DNA of 64,000 bases from Streptomyces sp. NBC_00289. GTDB lineage: Bacteria > Actinomycetota > Actinomycetes > Streptomycetales > Streptomycetaceae. The DNA lies in the NCBI RefSeq assembly GCF_041435115.1, contig NZ_CP108046.1:3720001-3784000 (forward strand). Reading direction: 5' to 3'. The notes beneath the pieces are model-generated. The model saw only the letters and a program-made list of their open reading frames with translations, ran no database searches and was not told where the DNA came from. Position 1 is the stretch's first letter. Each line of letters begins with the position of its first letter. Positions 38,582 to 47,008 of the stretch are shown here, in pieces. Both the position numbers and the translations under genes were made by a program.

Positions 38582-38644
38582 GTCCGCCCCTTCGTCCAAC
38601 CGACATTGATCGTACGGGCGTTGAGCCTATCCGGTGGCAGAAAG

Positions 38645-38683
38645 GGCGGGCCCCGCACACCGTGGGGATGTGCGGGACCCGCC
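38645..38683 (-). terminator. Terminator of the encapsulin operon
   Basis: 15-bp arms (38645-38659 and 38669-38683) pair with one mismatch. It lies between the cargo gene stop (38771) and the GNAT start on the same strand. Confidence 0.78.
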
Positions 38684-38770
38684 GACCGGAGCCCTCGGAC
38701 ACCGCGCGGGGTCAGGTCCGCACGGTTCCGGTGGCTCCGGGGTATCGGGGCCCCTCGGTCACCGCGACCG

Positions 38771-39847
38771 TCAGTTGCTGCGCCGGGTGACGAACTCGGC
38801 CAGCGCGAGCAGCCCACCCGCCGCCTCCGGCTCGGGCACCGCGCGGGCCAGTTCCTGCATGGCGCGGGCCATCCGGTCGGCCGCCTGGACCTGCGCCCAG
38901 TCGCGTCCGCCCGCCCGCTCCACCGCCAGCGCGGTCCGCTCCAGGTCCCCCTCGCGGTACGGGACGCGGTACAGCTCGGCCAGTTCGGCGGCCGCCGGTG
39001 TGCCGGAGGCGAGGGCGGCCACCACGGGCAGTGACTTCTTGCGGGCGACGAGGTCCGCACCGGCCGGCTTGCCGGTGCGCACCGGGTCGCCCCATATGCC
39101 GATCACGTCGTCGATGAGCTGGAAGGCGAGCCCGGCCTGCCGGCCGAACGCGTCCATGGCCTCGACGTCCTCCTCCGCGACGCCCGCGTACAGGGCGCCC
39201 ATCGCGCAGGCGCACCCCAGCAGCGCGCCCGTCTTCGCCTCGGCCATGGTGAGCACCTCGCCGAGGGTGACCTCGCCGGGTGCGCGTCGCTCCATGTCCG
39301 TGTCCGTGTGCTGGCCCGCGCACAGTTCCATGACGCAGGCCGCGAGCCGGGCGGCGGCGGCCGCGGACGCCGGGTGCGGGTCCTCGGCGAGCAGTCCGAG
39401 GGCCAGTGCCTGCAGAGCGTCCCCGGCGAGGATGGCGTCGGCGTCGCCGAAGACGGTCCAGGCGGTGGGCCGGTGGCGGCGGGTGGTGTCCCGGTCCATC
39501 ACGTCGTCGTGCAGCAGCGTGAAGTTGTGGACCAGTTCCACCGCCGCGGCCGCCCGCAGGGACGCCGAGCGGGCGGGCTGCCCGCCGAGCGCGGCCGCCG
39601 CGGTGAGGACGAGCGCCGGGCGGATCGCCTTGCCCGGGTTGCCCGCCGCCGGAGTGCCGTCGGCGTGTTCCCAGCCGAAGTGGTAGAGCGCGATCCGGCG
39701 CATCGAGCCGGGCAGCGACTCGAGAGCCGCACGCAGTCCGGGATCGACACAGGCCCGGGCGCTCTCCAGGATCGCCACGGCCTCCTGCCCGTCGGGCGGA
39801 CAGGGCTCGGTGGGCCGCTGCTTCGGCTCCGTCATGAACTCGGTCAC
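38771..39847 (-). CDS. Polyprenyl diphosphate synthase-type encapsulin cargo
   Basis: 358 aa from GTG 39847 (GGGAG 5 nt upstream); an ATG 12 bp inside has no ribosome binding site. The first aspartate-rich motif is intact (LLHDDVMDRDTTRR); the second is DDVIGIWGD instead of DDxxD. It shows the KAIRPAL and QLIDDV blocks of trans-isoprenyl diphosphate synthases. The N-terminal stretch of about 20 disordered residues plus LPGSMRRIALYHFGW is typical of cargo of family 2 encapsulins. It lies 109 bp after the shell gene on the same strand. It probably makes a prenyl diphosphate, such as geranyl or farnesyl, inside the shell; product length unknown. Confidence 0.9.
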   Translation of the reverse strand: MTEFMTEPKQRPTEPCPPDGQEAVAILESARACVDPGLRAALESLPGSMRRIALYHFGWEHADGTPAAGNPGKAIRPALVLTAAAALGGQPARSASLRAAAAVELVHNFTLLHDDVMDRDTTRRHRPTAWTVFGDADAILAGDALQALALGLLAEDPHPASAAAAARLAACVMELCAGQHTDTDMERRAPGEVTLGEVLTMAEAKTGALLGCACAMGALYAGVAEEDVEAMDAFGRQAGLAFQLIDDVIGIWGDPVRTGKPAGADLVARKKSLPVVAALASGTPAAAELAELYRVPYREGDLERTALAVERAGGRDWAQVQAADRMARAMQELARAVPEPEAAGGLLALAEFVTRRSN

Positions 39848-39865
39848 GGGGTCTCCCTCGGAGAG

Positions 39866-39886
39866 TCCGCGGACGGTGTCCGCGGA
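39866..39886 (-). promoter_or_regulatory. Intercistronic hairpin between shell and cargo genes
   Basis: TCCGCGGAC (39866-39874) pairs with GTCCGCGGA (39878-39886), a perfect 9-bp stem with a 3-nt loop, 19 bp before the cargo start. It could act as a partial terminator or a processing and stability element lowering cargo relative to shell. Confidence 0.55.
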
Positions 39887-39956
39887 GCGGCCGGCCGCGT
39901 GCGACCGGGTGCCCCCGCCCCGGCGGGCGGGGACACGGCTTCCCGGTGCGGGAACG

Positions 39957-41363
39957 TCACCTCCAGCGGCCGATCTCGACGTTCTCCAGGACACCGAGCG
40001 CGTCCGGCACGAGAACCGCGGCCGAGTAGTAGGCCGTCACCAGGTACTTGATGATCGCCTGCTCGTTGATGCCCATGAAGCGCACGGACAGGCTCGGCTC
40101 GATCTCGTCCGGGATGCCGGCCTGCTGCAGGCCGATGACGCCCTGCTCGGCCTCGCCGGTACGCATGGCGATGATCGAGGTCGTACGGGCCTCGGTGACC
40201 GGGATCTTGGCGCACGGGTAGATCGGCACGCCGCGCCAGGTGGGGATGCGGTGGCCGGCCACGTCGATGGTCTCGGGCACGAGTCCGCGCTTGTTGAGCT
40301 CACGGCCGATCGCGGCGATGGCGCGCGGGTGGGCGAGCAGCAGCTTGGTGCCGCGCCGCCTGCTGAGCAGTTCGTCCAGGTCGTCGGGGCTGGGCACGCC
40401 GTCGTGCGGCTGGAGCCGCTGGTCGTACTCACAGTTGTTCAGCAGCCCGAACTCGCGGTTGTTGACGAGTTCGTGTTCCTGGCGTTCCTTCAGCGCCTCG
40501 ACGGTCAGCCGGAGCTGGTGCTCGGTCTGGTTCATCGGCTGGTTGTAGAGGTCGGCCACGCGTGAGTGGATGCGCAGCACGGTCTGGGCGACGCTCAGTT
40601 CGTACTCGCGGGGGCTGGACTCGTAGTCGACGAAGGTGTGCGGGATGTCCGGCTCGCCGGAGTGGCCGGCCGCGAGGTCGATCTCCTTCTCGCCGAACTT
40701 GTTGGTGCGCTGCTCCGGAATGCTGCGCAGCTGCTGGAGGTGTTCGCGCAGGGACTCGGAGCGCTCGGCGACCTGCTCGACGTCCTGACGGGGCAGTACG
40801 AGCATGGTGCACCCGGTGACCGCGCGGGCGGTGTACTCCCAGATGGCGTCCGGGTCCAGCAGTGACTGGTCGCCGAAGTAGGCGCCGTCGGCGAGGACTC
40901 CGAGGACCGCGTCGTCGCCGTACGGGCCGGTGCCGACCTTCTCCACCCTGCCGTGCGCCAGCAGGAAGACCTCGTCGGCCGCGCTGCCGAAGGAGGCGAT
41001 CACGTCGCCCGGCCCGAACTCGCGCTGCTGGCAGCGCCGGGCGAGCTCGGTGAGCACGTCCTCGTCCTCGTAGGACCGCAGCGCGGGCAGTTCGCCCAGC
41101 TCGGCGGGGATCACCTCGACGCGGTCGCCGGTCTTCACGAACGTCACCCGGCCGTCGCCCACGGAGTAGGTCAACCGCCGGTTCACCCGGTAGGTGCCGC
41201 CCTGGACGTTCACCCACGGCAGCATGCGCAGCAGCCAGCGAGAGCTGATCTCCTGCATCTGCGGCGCGGACTTGGTGGTGGTGGCCAGGTTCCGCGCGGC
41301 CGCCGTGCCGAGACTCTGCTGCGGCTTGCCCTGATCCGTGCGGACCTCTTCGCCTACCGACAT
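39957..41363 (-). CDS. Family 2B encapsulin shell protein with cyclic-nucleotide-binding-like domain
   Basis: 468 aa. The N-terminal arm and first HK97-type part (to about residue 90: [23 protein letters not shown]) is followed by an inserted cNMP-binding-like domain at about 95-225 ([32 protein letters not shown]), then the rest of the HK97 shell fold ([49 protein letters not shown]). This is the EshA/EshB type, now known as family 2B encapsulins, which form icosahedral nanocompartments. The phosphate-binding cassette is atypical (FGDQSLL, with Trp where Arg is usual), so cyclic nucleotide binding is doubtful. GGAGGG lies about 9 nt before the start. A polyprenyl-synthase cargo gene follows. 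Confidence 0.93.
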
Positions 41364-43261: not shown

Positions 43262-44860
43262 TCAGCTCGCCGCCTCCCGGAAGGCCGCCGCCTCCTCCAG
43301 GTCCAGCCTGCGCAGCAGCGTCCGCAGCATCTCGTCGTCGATGTGGCGGGCGTCCCGCAGCCGCACGAACACCTTGCGTTCCGTGCTGATCATCTCCCGG
43401 GACAGGCGCCGGTAGGTGTCGTCGACGGTCTCGCCGGTGAGGGGGTTGACCTGGCCGAGGCGTTCCCAGACGGCGTTGCGGCGGCGTTCCAGGACGGCGC
43501 GCAGCCGGTCGGCGAGGGGCGGCGGAAGGGCGTTGCGCTCGTCGGCGAGGAGTTCCTCCAGACGCCGCTCGGCGGCCAGGGAGGCCTGCGCCTGGGCGTT
43601 GGCCTCCGCGAGCGTCTCGGCCTGCTGGTCGCGGCCGGGCAGCTTCAGCAGGCGGATCAGCGGGGGCAGCGTCACGCCCTGCACGACGAGCGTGCCGATG
43701 ACCGTCGTGAAGGTCAGGAAGAGGATGAGGTTGCGCCCGGGGAACTTGTCGCCGCCGTGCACCGTGAGCGGGATCGAGAAGGCGATGGCCAGCGACACCA
43801 CGCCCCGCATGCCGGCCCAGCCGATGACGAACGCGCCCTTCCAGGTGGGATCGGGCTCCCGCTCCCTGATCCGCGCCGACAGCATGCGCGGCAGGAAGGT
43901 CGCCGGATAGACCCACACGAAGCGGGTGGCGACCACGACCAGGAAGACGGCCACCGCGTACCAGGCGGCGGTGCCTCCCTCGTACTCCCCGAGGCCCTTG
44001 AGGACGACCGGGAGCTGCAGTCCGATCAGGGCGAACACCGACGACTCCAGGACGAACGCGACCATCTTCCACACCGCCTCCTCCTGCAGGCGCGTCGCGA
44101 AGTCCACCTCCCACGCGCGGTGACCGAGATAGAGCGCCACGACCACGACCGCGAGGACCCCGGAGGCGTGCACCTGCTCGGCGACGGCGTACGCGACGAA
44201 CGGGATCAGCAGGGAGAGCGTGTTCTGCAGCAGCGCCTCCTTGAGGTGGGTGCGCAGCCAGTGGATCGGCACCATCAGGAGCAGCCCGATGCCGACGCCG
44301 CCGACCGCCGCGAGCAGGAACTCGCCGATCCCCTCGGCCCAGGTGGCGCCCTCGCCGATGGCCGCGGCGAGGGCGACCCGGTAGGCGGTGATCGCGGTGG
44401 CGTCGTTCACCAGCGACTCGCCCTGGAGAATCGTGGTGATCCGGGACGGCAGCCCCACCCGGCGCGCCACGGCGGTGGCCGCGACGGCGTCCGGCGGCGC
44501 CACCACCGCGCCCAGCACCAGGGCCGCGGCCAGCGGCAGCCCCGGGACGATCCTGTAGACGGCCCAGCCGACCACCACGGTCGCGAACAGCACGTACCCC
44601 ACCGACAGCAGCGCGACGGGCCGCAGCTGGGCACGCAGGTCGAGGTACGAGCTGTCGGTGGCCGAGGTGTAGAGCAGCGGGGGCAGGATGAGCGGCAGGA
44701 CGATGTGGGGGTCGAGGGTGTATTCGGGGATTCCGGGGACGTACGAGATCACCAGACCGGCCGCGACCAGCAGCAGCGGTGCGGGCACCGGTGTCCGCCG
44801 GGCGGCCGCGGCGATCGCCGCGCTCCCCGCCACCAGCAACAGCAGTGGCATCACGTCCAT
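43262..44860 (-). CDS. Na+/H+ antiporter of the CPA1 family
   Basis: 532 aa from ATG 44860. About twelve membrane helices, beginning MPLLLLVAGSAAIAAAA; the transport core carries GAVVAPPDAVAATAVARRVG and ILQGESLVNDATAITAYRVAL (the Asn-Asp pair of CPA1 exchangers), later GWAGMRGVVSLAIAF. The C-terminal 110 residues are a hydrophilic cytoplasmic helix region. It exchanges Na+ (or K+/Li+) for protons to keep pH and salt balance. A UBP-type zinc-finger gene is divergent 62 bp away. Confidence 0.94.
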   Translation of the reverse strand: MDVMPLLLLVAGSAAIAAAARRTPVPAPLLLVAAGLVISYVPGIPEYTLDPHIVLPLILPPLLYTSATDSSYLDLRAQLRPVALLSVGYVLFATVVVGWAVYRIVPGLPLAAALVLGAVVAPPDAVAATAVARRVGLPSRITTILQGESLVNDATAITAYRVALAAAIGEGATWAEGIGEFLLAAVGGVGIGLLLMVPIHWLRTHLKEALLQNTLSLLIPFVAYAVAEQVHASGVLAVVVVALYLGHRAWEVDFATRLQEEAVWKMVAFVLESSVFALIGLQLPVVLKGLGEYEGGTAAWYAVAVFLVVVATRFVWVYPATFLPRMLSARIREREPDPTWKGAFVIGWAGMRGVVSLAIAFSIPLTVHGGDKFPGRNLILFLTFTTVIGTLVVQGVTLPPLIRLLKLPGRDQQAETLAEANAQAQASLAAERRLEELLADERNALPPPLADRLRAVLERRRNAVWERLGQVNPLTGETVDDTYRRLSREMISTERKVFVRLRDARHIDDEMLRTLLRRLDLEEAAAFREAAS

Positions 44861-44922
44861 CGTTCTCGCCCGCCCTCGTTTTTGCGCGCGGCCACCCGCA
44901 CACCCGTCGTAATCTGGCAATC

Positions 44923-45183
44923 ATGAAACAGTGCACGCACGCCGACGCGCTGCCGCACCCGGAGCCGGAGCCGCTGAGCGAGACCTGTCCGGAGTGTCTA
45001 CGGGACGGTACGCACCCGGTACAGCTTCGGCTCTGCCTCACCTGCGGTCACGTCGGCTGCTGCGACTCCTCTCCGGCACGGCACGCCAACGAGCACCACA
45101 AGGAGTCCGGTCATCCCGTGATGCGAACCTTCGAACCCGGCGAGAACTGGCGTTGGTGCTTCGTGGACCACGTCCTCGTGTGA
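44923..45183 (+). CDS. UBP-type zinc-finger protein
   Basis: 86 aa from ATG 44923 (TAATCT 7 nt upstream). The zf-UBP pattern is complete: TCPECLRDGTHPVQLRLCLTCGHVGCCDSSPARHANEHHKESGHPVMRTF with the His pairs, then ENWRWCFVDH. In eukaryotes this fold binds the ubiquitin C-terminus; in bacteria the ligand is unknown. It commonly neighbours Na+/H+ antiporters in actinobacteria, so it may sense or regulate that transporter. Confidence 0.9.
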   Translation: MKQCTHADALPHPEPEPLSETCPECLRDGTHPVQLRLCLTCGHVGCCDSSPARHANEHHKESGHPVMRTFEPGENWRWCFVDHVLV

Positions 45184-45217
45184 CTCTGGACGGCCTGGGG
45201 AGACTCCGGATCCGGAC

Positions 45218-45243
45218 GGTTCGACCGTCTGACGTCTGGGTAC
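45218..45243 (+). promoter_or_regulatory. Candidate sigma-B/sigma-H promoter upstream of the anti-sigma/sigH operon
   Basis: GGTT (45218-45221), 16 bp, GGGTAC (45238-45243) fits the stress sigma pattern GNNT-N14-16-GGGTA(C/T). It is 209 bp before the first gene, which suggests autoregulation by SigH or a related stress factor. Confidence 0.65.
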
Positions 45244-45301
45244 GTCAACCCGACGCGCCCTGTTCCCAATTGGGCCCGCGAACCCTCTAGCCACGGAGCG
45301 T

Positions 45302-45322
45302 ACTCATAGGTTTACTATGAGT
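45302..45322. promoter_or_regulatory. Perfect inverted repeat in the anti-sigma/sigH leader
   Basis: ACTCATAG (45302-45309) and CTATGAGT (45315-45322) around a 5-nt AT-rich centre. Its base composition stands out. It could be an operator or an RNA hairpin; the known BldD control of sigH in S. coelicolor makes an operator possible, though it does not match the BldD box. Confidence 0.5.
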
Positions 45323-45452
45323 GACAGCAGGGGGTCGGGGTCCCGGGGACAGGAAAGTCGAGAGCGCGGTAGCGTCACCGCTGCACCACGTATCGCGTTA
45401 CCCCGGGGGGCGACCCTCGGCCCGAAAAGCTTGTACCACCTTGGAGGTGAGG

Positions 45453-45866
45453 GTGTCCCAGATCGCAGGCGAACCCGCGACCCAGGACTTCGTGGAAGTC
45501 CGGCTGCCGGCTGCGGGTGCCTACCTGTCGGTGCTGCGGACGGCCACGGCCGGCCTCGCGGCCCGTTTGGACTTCACCCTCGACGAGATCGAGGACCTTC
45601 GCATCGCGGTCGACGAGGCCTGCGCGATCCTGCTCCAGCAGGCCGTGCCCGGCTCGGTGCTCAGCTGTGTCTTCCGGCTCGTCGACGACTCGCTCGAGGT
45701 CACCGTCTCGGCGCCGACCACGGACGGTCACGCCCCCGCGCGCGACACGTTCGCCTGGACCGTCCTGTCGGCCCTGGCGGGCAAGGTCTCCTCCGCCGTG
45801 GACGAGGACAAAACCGTTTCGATCAGCCTCTACAAACAGCGCGGCGCGGGACCCGGGCCGGCGTGA
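45453..45866 (+). CDS. prsH: Anti-sigma factor of the RsbW/UshX (PrsH) type
   Basis: 137 aa from GTG 45453 with GGAGG 5 nt upstream. It is a GHKL-type Ser kinase/anti-sigma fold: LPAAGAYLSVLRTATAGLAARLDFTLDEIEDLRIAVDEACAILLQ, with the N-box DEACAILL, then AWTVLSALAGKVSSAVDEDKTVSISLYKQ. It is expected to bind and hold SigH, encoded next with a 4-bp GTGA overlap, and to be released by an anti-anti-sigma partner under osmotic or developmental signals. Confidence 0.93.
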   Translation: MSQIAGEPATQDFVEVRLPAAGAYLSVLRTATAGLAARLDFTLDEIEDLRIAVDEACAILLQQAVPGSVLSCVFRLVDDSLEVTVSAPTTDGHAPARDTFAWTVLSALAGKVSSAVDEDKTVSISLYKQRGAGPGPA

Positions 45867-47008
45867 GGAACGGGGACGGGCCGGTGCGTGACGAAGAGCG
45901 CGGCACACGGGAGCTGCCGGCCGAGGAGGGGGGTCCCCCCGGCTCGAGCACGGTCGAGGGCTCGGGAGAAGACGGCCCGAGCGCATTCCGACGCAAGGCG
46001 GACGCCATCGACGGCATCCCCGAGCAGGCCCGGCCGCACCCGGAGGACGACTCCTCGGAGGCCGTCGTCCCGGGCGACGGGCAGCGTGATCGGGAAGGTG
46101 CCGTGCGGAGCGCGCCTCTGGACGGACGGATCGGGGTCACCCCTGTCCGAGCGGAGGCAGAGGCTCGGGGAAGGGCAACGGGCGGGACGATGAGCGAGCA
46201 CGAGCGAGAAGACGACAAGGCCGCGCAGCGCGTGCAGCACACTTCGCACCGGCCCCAGGACCGCAGCGGGGCACGCGCCCTGTTCATCGAACTGCGCAAA
46301 CTGCAGGACGGCAGCCCGGAGTACGCGGAGCTGCGCAACCGGCTGGTCCGCATGCACCTGCCGCTCGTCGAGCACCTCGCCCGCCGCTTCCGCAACCGCG
46401 GCGAGCCGCTGGACGACCTGACCCAGGTCGCCACCATCGGCCTGATCAAGTCCGTCGACCGCTTCGATCCGGAGCGCGGCGTCGAGTTCTCGACGTACGC
46501 GACGCCCACGGTCGTCGGCGAGATCAAGCGCCACTTCCGCGACAAGGGCTGGGCGGTGCGCGTCCCGCGCCGGCTGCAGGAACTGCGTCTCGCGCTCACC
46601 ACCGCGACGGCGGAACTCTCGCAGCAGCACGGCCGCTCCCCCACCGTCCACGAGCTGGCCGAGAAACTGGCCATCTCGGAGGAGGAGGTCCTGGAGGGCC
46701 TGGAGTCCGCCAACGCGTACTCCACGCTGTCCCTGGACGTCCCCGACACGGACGACGAGTCCCCGGCGGTCGCGGACACCCTGGGCGCGGAGGACGAGGC
46801 GCTGGAGGGCGTCGAGTACCGCGAGTCGCTCAAGCCGCTCCTGGAGGACCTCCCGCCGCGCGAGAAGCGGATCCTGCTGCTGCGCTTCTTCGGCAACATG
46901 ACCCAGTCGCAGATCGCGCAGGAGGTCGGGATCTCGCAGATGCACGTGTCCCGGCTGCTGGCTCGAACGCTGGCCCAGCTGCGGGAGAAGCTGCTGGTGG
47001 AGGAGTAG
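45863..47008 (+). CDS. sigH: Stress and development RNA polymerase sigma factor SigH
   Basis: 381 aa from GTG 45863, which overlaps the anti-sigma stop; an internal ATG at 46190 gives a 272-aa form. The first about 110 residues are acidic and disordered. Then sigma regions 2 (RNRLVRMHLPLVEHLARRF, LDDLTQVATIGLIKSVDRFD), 3 (RSPTVHELAEKLAIS) and 4 (RILLLRFFGNMTQSQIAQEVGISQMHVSRLLART) of the SigB/SigF group. In S. coelicolor SigH is made as several forms from different starts or by processing; the two starts seen here fit that. It controls osmotic stress and sporulation genes. Confidence 0.94.
   Translation: MRNGDGPVRDEERGTRELPAEEGGPPGSSTVEGSGEDGPSAFRRKADAIDGIPEQARPHPEDDSSEAVVPGDGQRDREGAVRSAPLDGRIGVTPVRAEAEARGRATGGTMSEHEREDDKAAQRVQHTSHRPQDRSGARALFIELRKLQDGSPEYAELRNRLVRMHLPLVEHLARRFRNRGEPLDDLTQVATIGLIKSVDRFDPERGVEFSTYATPTVVGEIKRHFRDKGWAVRVPRRLQELRLALTTATAELSQQHGRSPTVHELAEKLAISEEEVLEGLESANAYSTLSLDVPDTDDESPAVADTLGAEDEALEGVEYRESLKPLLEDLPPREKRILLLRFFGNMTQSQIAQEVGISQMHVSRLLARTLAQLREKLLVEE

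Follow-up and report, generated by a model that had tools for sequence, protein, structure and literature searches.

An eshB-type Family 2B encapsulin operon of Streptomyces with a prenyl diphosphate synthase as its probable cargo and a recurrent hairpin in the intergenic gap

When the gene for an encapsulin shell is directly followed by the gene for an enzyme, the question arises of whether the enzyme is housed in the shell, what it would make there and how the dose of enzyme is set. This question is raised by a Family 2B shell gene and an adjoining prenyl diphosphate synthase gene of Streptomyces sp. NBC_00289, found in a stretch of 64,000 nucleotides (NZ_CP108046.1, positions 3,720,001 to 3,784,000), which is called here the window (Table 1). 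The pair is probably an eshB-type operon with a single shell gene, whose virus-derived shell protein would assemble into a small icosahedral container with the neighbouring E-type synthase as its enzyme. The synthase would most likely make a chain of geranylgeranyl diphosphate (GGPP) length for general use in the cell and not for a neighbouring cyclase, and a hairpin after the shell stop codon probably sets the amount of cargo mRNA relative to that of the shell.

The identity of both genes is clear. The initial annotation had described an EshA/EshB-type Family 2B shell gene with a prenyl synthase gene 109 bp downstream, and both claims were borne out: the products exceed the NCBIfam cut-offs of NF041163 (encap_f2b shell, 400 bits) and NF041169 (f2_encap_cargo4, 450 bits), and the gap between the genes (39848-39956) measures exactly 109 bp. 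The shell protein displays the domain plan of Family 2B, an HK97/SrpI-like domain with an inserted domain resembling cyclic nucleoside monophosphate (cNMP)-binding domains, and the closest solved shells are 9bhu, 9bix and 9bje. Its AlphaFold model has a mean predicted local distance difference test (pLDDT) score of 54.8 and is poor outside the inserted domain. In the pocket of this domain, W175 is invariant in 29/29 aligned shells and occupies what we take to be the place of the phosphate-binding arginine of CRP. This residue fits the published absence of cyclic-nucleotide binding by a domain of this kind, as given in the available text (PMC12407261). W175 also hints at a ligand other than a cyclic nucleotide in the shell pocket.

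The adjacency of the two genes is conserved throughout the genus. The genus set comprised 121 genomes, the window's own and 120 drawn from the same genus, and the adjacency counts rest on 150 listed shells, a shell being understood there as one among the matches listed. A Family 2B shell exceeds the cut-off in 118 of the 121 genomes and the cargo in 91, and in 88 of these 91 a listed shell immediately precedes the cargo in the same orientation, 50-471 nt separating the matches. Among the three exceptions, G013 does have a shell, the cargo of G112 is at the end of a contig and no shell stands at that place in G076. Furthermore, none of the 40 entered matches to synthase paralogues below the cut-off has a listed shell upstream. 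In an order-wide draw, the cargo exceeds the cut-off in 177/245 genomes, 227 of the 245 belonging to the same genus. In some relatives (e.g., L120, L132 and L134, with a gap of -4), the predicted cargo start overlaps the shell stop, as in an operon with translational coupling.

The available text of one survey counts 900 polyprenyl transferase (PT) Family 2B operons, 888 of them in Actinobacteria (Andreas and Giessen 2021, PMC8346489), and the gene found most often beside Family 2b shells is reported to be that of polyprenyl diphosphate synthase (PMC8049743). Given these 900 published operons and the 88/91 adjacency in the genus, the window operon is a member of a known, very common and already catalogued system. 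It shares with the PT operons of the survey a shell with an inserted cNMP-like domain, an adjoining PT gene and an actinobacterial host (PMC8346489). Polyprenyl-synthase encapsulins are among the commonest Family 2B systems (PMC8346489, PMC8049743), and a limited literature search turned up no biochemical study of one.

A two-component shell was rejected, as a single shell exceeds the cut-off in the whole genome, with no second shell gene within 10 kb, and none of the 88 relatives has a second listed shell within that distance. In this respect, the operon differs from the Sl-Enc1/Sl-Enc2 two-component shell of S. lydicus as described in the available text (PMC12407261), and its motif 2 region differs from both of those proteins. 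It belongs to Family 2B like Sl-Enc2, which is reported to assemble alone; motif 1 of the window shell, RRRG, resembles that of Sl-Enc2, RRRK (PMC12407261).

Loading of the synthase into the shell would not proceed through an N-terminal peptide conserved across the orthologue group; judging from the aligned proteins, the remaining routes would be a disordered tail that is not conserved, or the folded body. The initial annotation had assigned an extra N-terminal segment to the synthase. This amounts to about 20 residues, of which only residues 1-18 are predicted to be disordered, the only stretch with pLDDT below 50 in an AlphaFold model from 39 sequences (mean pLDDT 91), in contrast with the 50-100 disordered N-terminal residues reported for PT cargos (PMC8346489). 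Those 18 residues follow from the GTG start, and an upstream start would place at most 73 residues before residue 25. The strong ribosome-binding site before the GTG speaks against a longer cargo N-terminus encoded by the gap, yet conservation does continue beyond the start codon.

The comparison covered 160 distinct loci, split by identity to the window cargo into a first lineage (above 75.5%, 112 loci) and a second comprising the remaining 48; the cut is an identity value, with a few intermediate loci near the first lineage in the tree. The loci are related by descent, and their counts overstate independence. Start calls from Shine-Dalgarno matching alone were implausible at some loci, and the N-terminal statistics were therefore taken at fixed positions. 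With any start codon allowed, the stretch before residue 25 can hold fewer than 30 residues in 50/160 loci and 50 or more in 73/160. The expectation, on which the initial annotation had staked its proposal, that the cargo N-terminus would be conserved in strains with this operon failed: mean identity to the window cargo over 37 orthologues is 0.28 for residues 1-20 versus 0.79 for the core (residues 61-300), with 0.69 for residues 21-60. Since identity is low and tail length variable in strains with the operon, the N-terminus is not a conserved loading signal.

The tails are mostly long and variable in the first lineage and mostly short in the second, where many start like MTSTDAATEGHEAA. The motif ER[RQHK]x[PSA][IV][AG] occurs in the N-terminal regions of 19/112 first-lineage loci (e.g., L060, L079 and L121), with none in the other two frames, 0.1 expected after residue shuffling and none in the 48 loci of the second lineage; the window cargo does not contain it. 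An ERRxPI(A/G)-like tail is a candidate shell-binding peptide for part of the family. According to the available text of the survey, no such peptide could be identified for PT cargos (PMC8346489). A tail motif of the GLGT type, as in terpene-cyclase cargos, was rejected for the synthase, being present in 1/160 N-terminal regions. The terpene-cyclase type of Family 2B system is exemplified in the set by L252, whose shell belongs to the same family and is 66% identical to that of the window. We read this system as being of the 2-methylisoborneol type. Unlike the window synthase, its cargo is a terpene cyclase (NF041167, 492.5 bits, cut-off 400) with a GPSGLGT-type tail. The tail of this cargo (L252:197-1432, minus strand), GPSGLGTSS, resembles SLGTAAARN in the N-arm of the window shell, and from this likeness one can conceive of a cargo that is loaded by mimicking the arm of the shell itself.

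The catalytic motifs of the synthase are intact. The E-type signatures DDVMD, GKAIRP and RR after the first motif are present, and the second aspartate motif reads DDVIG in place of the canonical DDxxD. It had been suggested that this second motif may change chain length, an idea rejected by comparison. Among 90 loci, drawn from the 91 cargo genomes with one left out and with the window's own counted in, 89 read DDVIG or DDLIG and one fell outside the search pattern; three of the seven paralogues in the window's own genome read DD(L/M)LG followed by IWG, and a fourth reads DDLLGLFG. The motif is a variant of the family.

FTLLH precedes the first motif in 88/90 loci, the residue at position -5 being aromatic. 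An aromatic residue at this position, without an insertion in the first aspartate-rich motif (FARM), is typical of C20 synthases. The best structural match of the cargo model is PDB 3nf2, a polyprenyl synthetase of S. coelicolor with the same fold (template modelling score, TM, 0.87), followed by archaeal GGPP synthases among others; after these, enzymes with products of different chain length are good matches as well. PDB 3nf2 was rejected as the structure of the cargo's own orthologue, as it is far closer to paralogue L008 of the same genome (461 bits) than to the cargo (241 bits). Sequence, structural neighbours and the chain-length rules known to us together make a product of GGPP length the most likely one.

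The statement that no terpene cyclase stands beside the operon was confirmed with PF19086, which gave eight domain matches in the whole genome, all of them outside the window. The closest cyclase gene begins at a distance of 28.2 kb from the shell gene and encodes an epi-isozizaene synthase orthologue (PDB 3kb9, 722 bits; C1:3789563-3790729 of the same genome, outside the window). It can be imagined that the cargo makes farnesyl diphosphate (FPP) for this enzyme, with the shell as part of an albaflavenone-type pathway. The cyclase is found in 49/121 genomes, 46 of these 49 have the cargo versus 45/72 of the genomes without it (Fisher p = 7e-5), and the two share a contig in 43/46 cases, 22-39 kb apart. 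However, 45 genomes have the operon and no cyclase, the distance is too large for an operon and the cargo sequence points to C20. Moreover, the association is explained by descent, because the cyclase is present at 41/43 first-lineage loci and 5/47 of the rest among the 90 cargo loci. Epi-isozizaene synthase was rejected as the partner, and we hold the FPP route to be highly improbable. Ten of the 50 listed epi-isozizaene synthase matches have in-frame stops, perhaps because the query starts upstream of the true start. By their coordinates, four of the seven paralogues in the window's own genome have a squalene/phytoene-type synthase or terpene cyclase at most about 4 kb away, neither of which was found within that distance of the cargo; nor was a UbiA-family gene found near the cargo.

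The operon occupies a conserved chromosomal place near the gene of a SigB-family sigma factor. This gene lies 3.4-7.8 kb upstream of the shell gene in 72/74 loci of one set (80 minus six with short flanks or a missing match) and 17/20 of another (19 of the second lineage plus G093 of the first), and an RsbW-like gene is near the operon in 74/74 and 17/20, respectively. In S. coelicolor, the locus numbers are SCO5243 for SigH and SCO5244 for UshX, the anti-sigma factor of SigH (PMC8346170), while eshB is SCO5249, a paralogue of eshA (SCO7699; PMC3878966). Because the sigH/ushX gene order and the SCO locus numbers agree, the window operon is most likely the eshB (SCO5249)-SCO5250 locus near sigH, the same gene pair as in S. 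coelicolor (PMC3878966, PMC7494193). In the sources as available, the eshB promoter is up-regulated in development (PMC3878966), SCO5250 is up 4.4-fold on glucose (PMC7494193), SCO5249 has values of 2.9, 3.2 and 2.4 in a table of first versus second mycelium (PMC3610822), and SCO5249 is listed among new targets that AtrA may regulate negatively (PMC13170358). Positions 43262-47008 of the window form a stress-type cluster with genes for a Na+/H+ antiporter, an RsbW-like protein and the SigB-family sigma factor, and this cluster is conserved near the shell operon.

Table 1. Coordinates in the window of the gene pair, its elements and the neighbouring regulatory genes
Feature	Coordinates	Strand	Evidence or remark
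Family 2B encapsulin shell gene (eshB type), 468 aa, ATG start	39957..41363	-	NF041163 769 bits; PF19307 and PF00027; PDB 9bhu_A 659 bits
cNMP-binding-like domain of the shell, residues 114-201	40761..41024	-	PF00027 61.7 bits
HK97/SrpI-like part of the shell, residues 216-466	39966..40718	-	PF19307 450 bits
Polyprenyl (probably geranylgeranyl-type) diphosphate synthase, putative cargo	38771..39847	-	NF041169 482.8 bits; PF00348; AlphaFold mean pLDDT 91
Cargo ribosome-binding site GAGGGAG	39853..39859	-	Read off the sequence; five bases upstream of the GTG start
Cargo residues 1-18, predicted disordered, not conserved	39794..39847	-	pLDDT < 50
First aspartate motif DDVMD, residues 114-118	39494..39508	-	
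Second aspartate motif DDVIG, residues 246-250	39098..39112	-	
Hairpin with 12-nt arms, 92% complementary, 20 nt past the shell stop	39909..39936	-	Site of the SigB-family promoter-like motif in relatives
Second intercistronic hairpin, 9 bp perfect, loop 3	39866..39886	-	
Hairpin after the cargo gene, 15-nt arms, 93%, probable terminator without a T-run	38645..38683	-	
SigB/F/G-family sigma gene (sigH orthologue by gene order), outside the operon	46172..47008	+	TIGR02980 321.8 bits, cut-off 234
RsbW-like anti-sigma gene (ushX-like) beside the sigma gene	45321..45866	+	NF003144 57 bits, below cut-off

As for the dose of cargo, the 9-bp hairpin that the initial annotation placed in the gap is there, and a stronger hairpin, nearer to the shell stop, had been missed; the whole gap folds with z = -3.0 (2/200 shuffles as good). 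The claim of a clean terminator after the pair stood in part. The hairpin after the cargo gene is real (region 38600-38770, z = -5.4, 0/200 shuffles as good), but no T-run goes with it and the terminator scan did not pick it up.

Stems of at least 11 pairs were counted in the 70 nt after the shell stop, with 2/112 and 13/48 loci left out for a short gap. They were found in 45/110 first-lineage loci (7.8 expected from shuffles) and 20/35 second-lineage loci (2.5 expected). At the end and in the middle of the shell gene, taken as controls, the counts were 2/112, 2/48, 0/112 and 0/48, at or below expectation, and the stretch that follows the cargo, and should contain a terminator, gave 20/111 (6.4 expected) and 17/48 (3.3 expected). 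Under a stricter test (at most 1/50 shuffles as good), the gap scored in 15/110 and 16/35 loci versus roughly 3 and 1 expected, with control values of 6/112 and 2/48 in the cargo gene and 0, 1, 0 and 0 in the shell gene. Over 82 loci, the gap folds with a mean z of -1.6, 35 loci being below -2 and 17 above 0, so a strong fold is frequent and not universal. The stem sequences differ between the two lineages. A recurrent hairpin after the shell stop, present in both lineages and overlapping a SigB-type motif in the first, is described here as a new element; the literature covered on the operon does not mention it in the text available, no search having been aimed at the element itself.

This overlap brings in another view of the gap, in which the element is first of all an internal promoter of the SigB/SigH family, expressing the cargo apart from the shell under osmotic stress or in sporulation. 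The pattern G..TN15-17GGGTA[CTG] is found in the gap of 74/112 first-lineage loci in the sense direction and none in antisense (1.5 expected), and it is a slightly relaxed form of the published consensus GNNTN-N14-16-GGGTAY (PMC5402319) and the -10 element GGGTAC/G (PMC3184153). A narrower pattern of this type occurs in 48/112 first-lineage gaps (one antisense, 1.1 expected), and in 10/111 (2.4 expected) and 1/48 (1.7 expected) of the regions upstream of the shell gene. In 29 loci, pairing fails at one position of the stem, by eye mostly GGGTAG opposite an unaltered GTGT, and this argues for a constraint on the sequence in addition to pairing. The sigma gene, as indicated, lies near almost all loci for which it was sought. 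Nevertheless, the 74 loci with the pattern are related by descent and are not 74 independent cases, and the second lineage has the pattern in only 2/48 loci (0.2 expected). Some relatives (e.g., L075, L138 and L173) change both arms and keep the stem, and first-lineage pairing reaches 0.785, above the maxima of 0.773 for permutations and 0.643 for slid versions. Double changes, a weak measure, number 38 versus at most 28 in permutations, but 26-57 in slid versions. Neither SCO5249 nor SCO5250 appears in the main text of a promoter study of SigB homologues (PMC8346170). In the window itself, the gap reads GTGT...GGGGGC, with GGGGGC in place of GGGTAC, a 12-pair stem and no match to the SigB consensus: this copy has kept the hairpin and, as its letters read, lost the -10 half of the promoter. 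A promoter as the primary role is thus a possibility to be taken seriously, though one that falls short of being probable. It is also imaginable, if rather doubtful, that the gap exerts dual control, the hairpin limiting read-through from shell to cargo and an overlapping SigB/SigH promoter adding cargo under osmotic stress or in sporulation; in the window strain, the promoter would have decayed and a perfect hairpin would fix a low cargo dose.

The remaining alternative concerns packaging. The two genes may be inherited and expressed together while the synthase stays unpackaged in the cytosol and the shell encloses another cargo or none. Four points weigh against the packaged synthase and its hairpin-set dose, and two of them suit this alternative. 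The literature covered, in the text available, contains no particle or assay for this gene pair. The cargo tail is short and unconserved, with room for fewer than 30 residues in almost a third of the loci and nearly no GLGT-type motif. G076 carries an intact but orphan cargo orthologue between the usual neighbours (L140:1507-2556, minus strand) with no shell beside it, its sole shell over the cut-off, 66% identical to that of the window, being paired with a terpene-cyclase cargo (492.5 bits). Finally, a control inside the cargo gene also yielded stems in excess, 10/112 (4.7 expected) and 12/48 (2.6 expected), which means that GC-rich coding sequence can give such an excess and that the stem count is not perfectly specific. 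Against an unpackaged synthase stand the near-constant adjacency of the cargo to a listed shell and the ER[RQHK]x[PSA][IV][AG] motif, which could point to a binding peptide in some members of the family. We consider it unlikely that the synthase is left outside, and the one-shell operon with the synthase as the enzyme of the shell remains the preferred reading.

The system is an ordinary one and already known. The comparison narrows the question of cargo loading, which does not go through an N-terminal peptide of genus-wide conservation, and that of shell and cargo dosage, through an element that recurs in the gap close to the sigH locus of stress and sporulation. If the dual control were true, the cell would tune the load of its shell. 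The gap element is the one lead of this locus that deserves a test at the bench.

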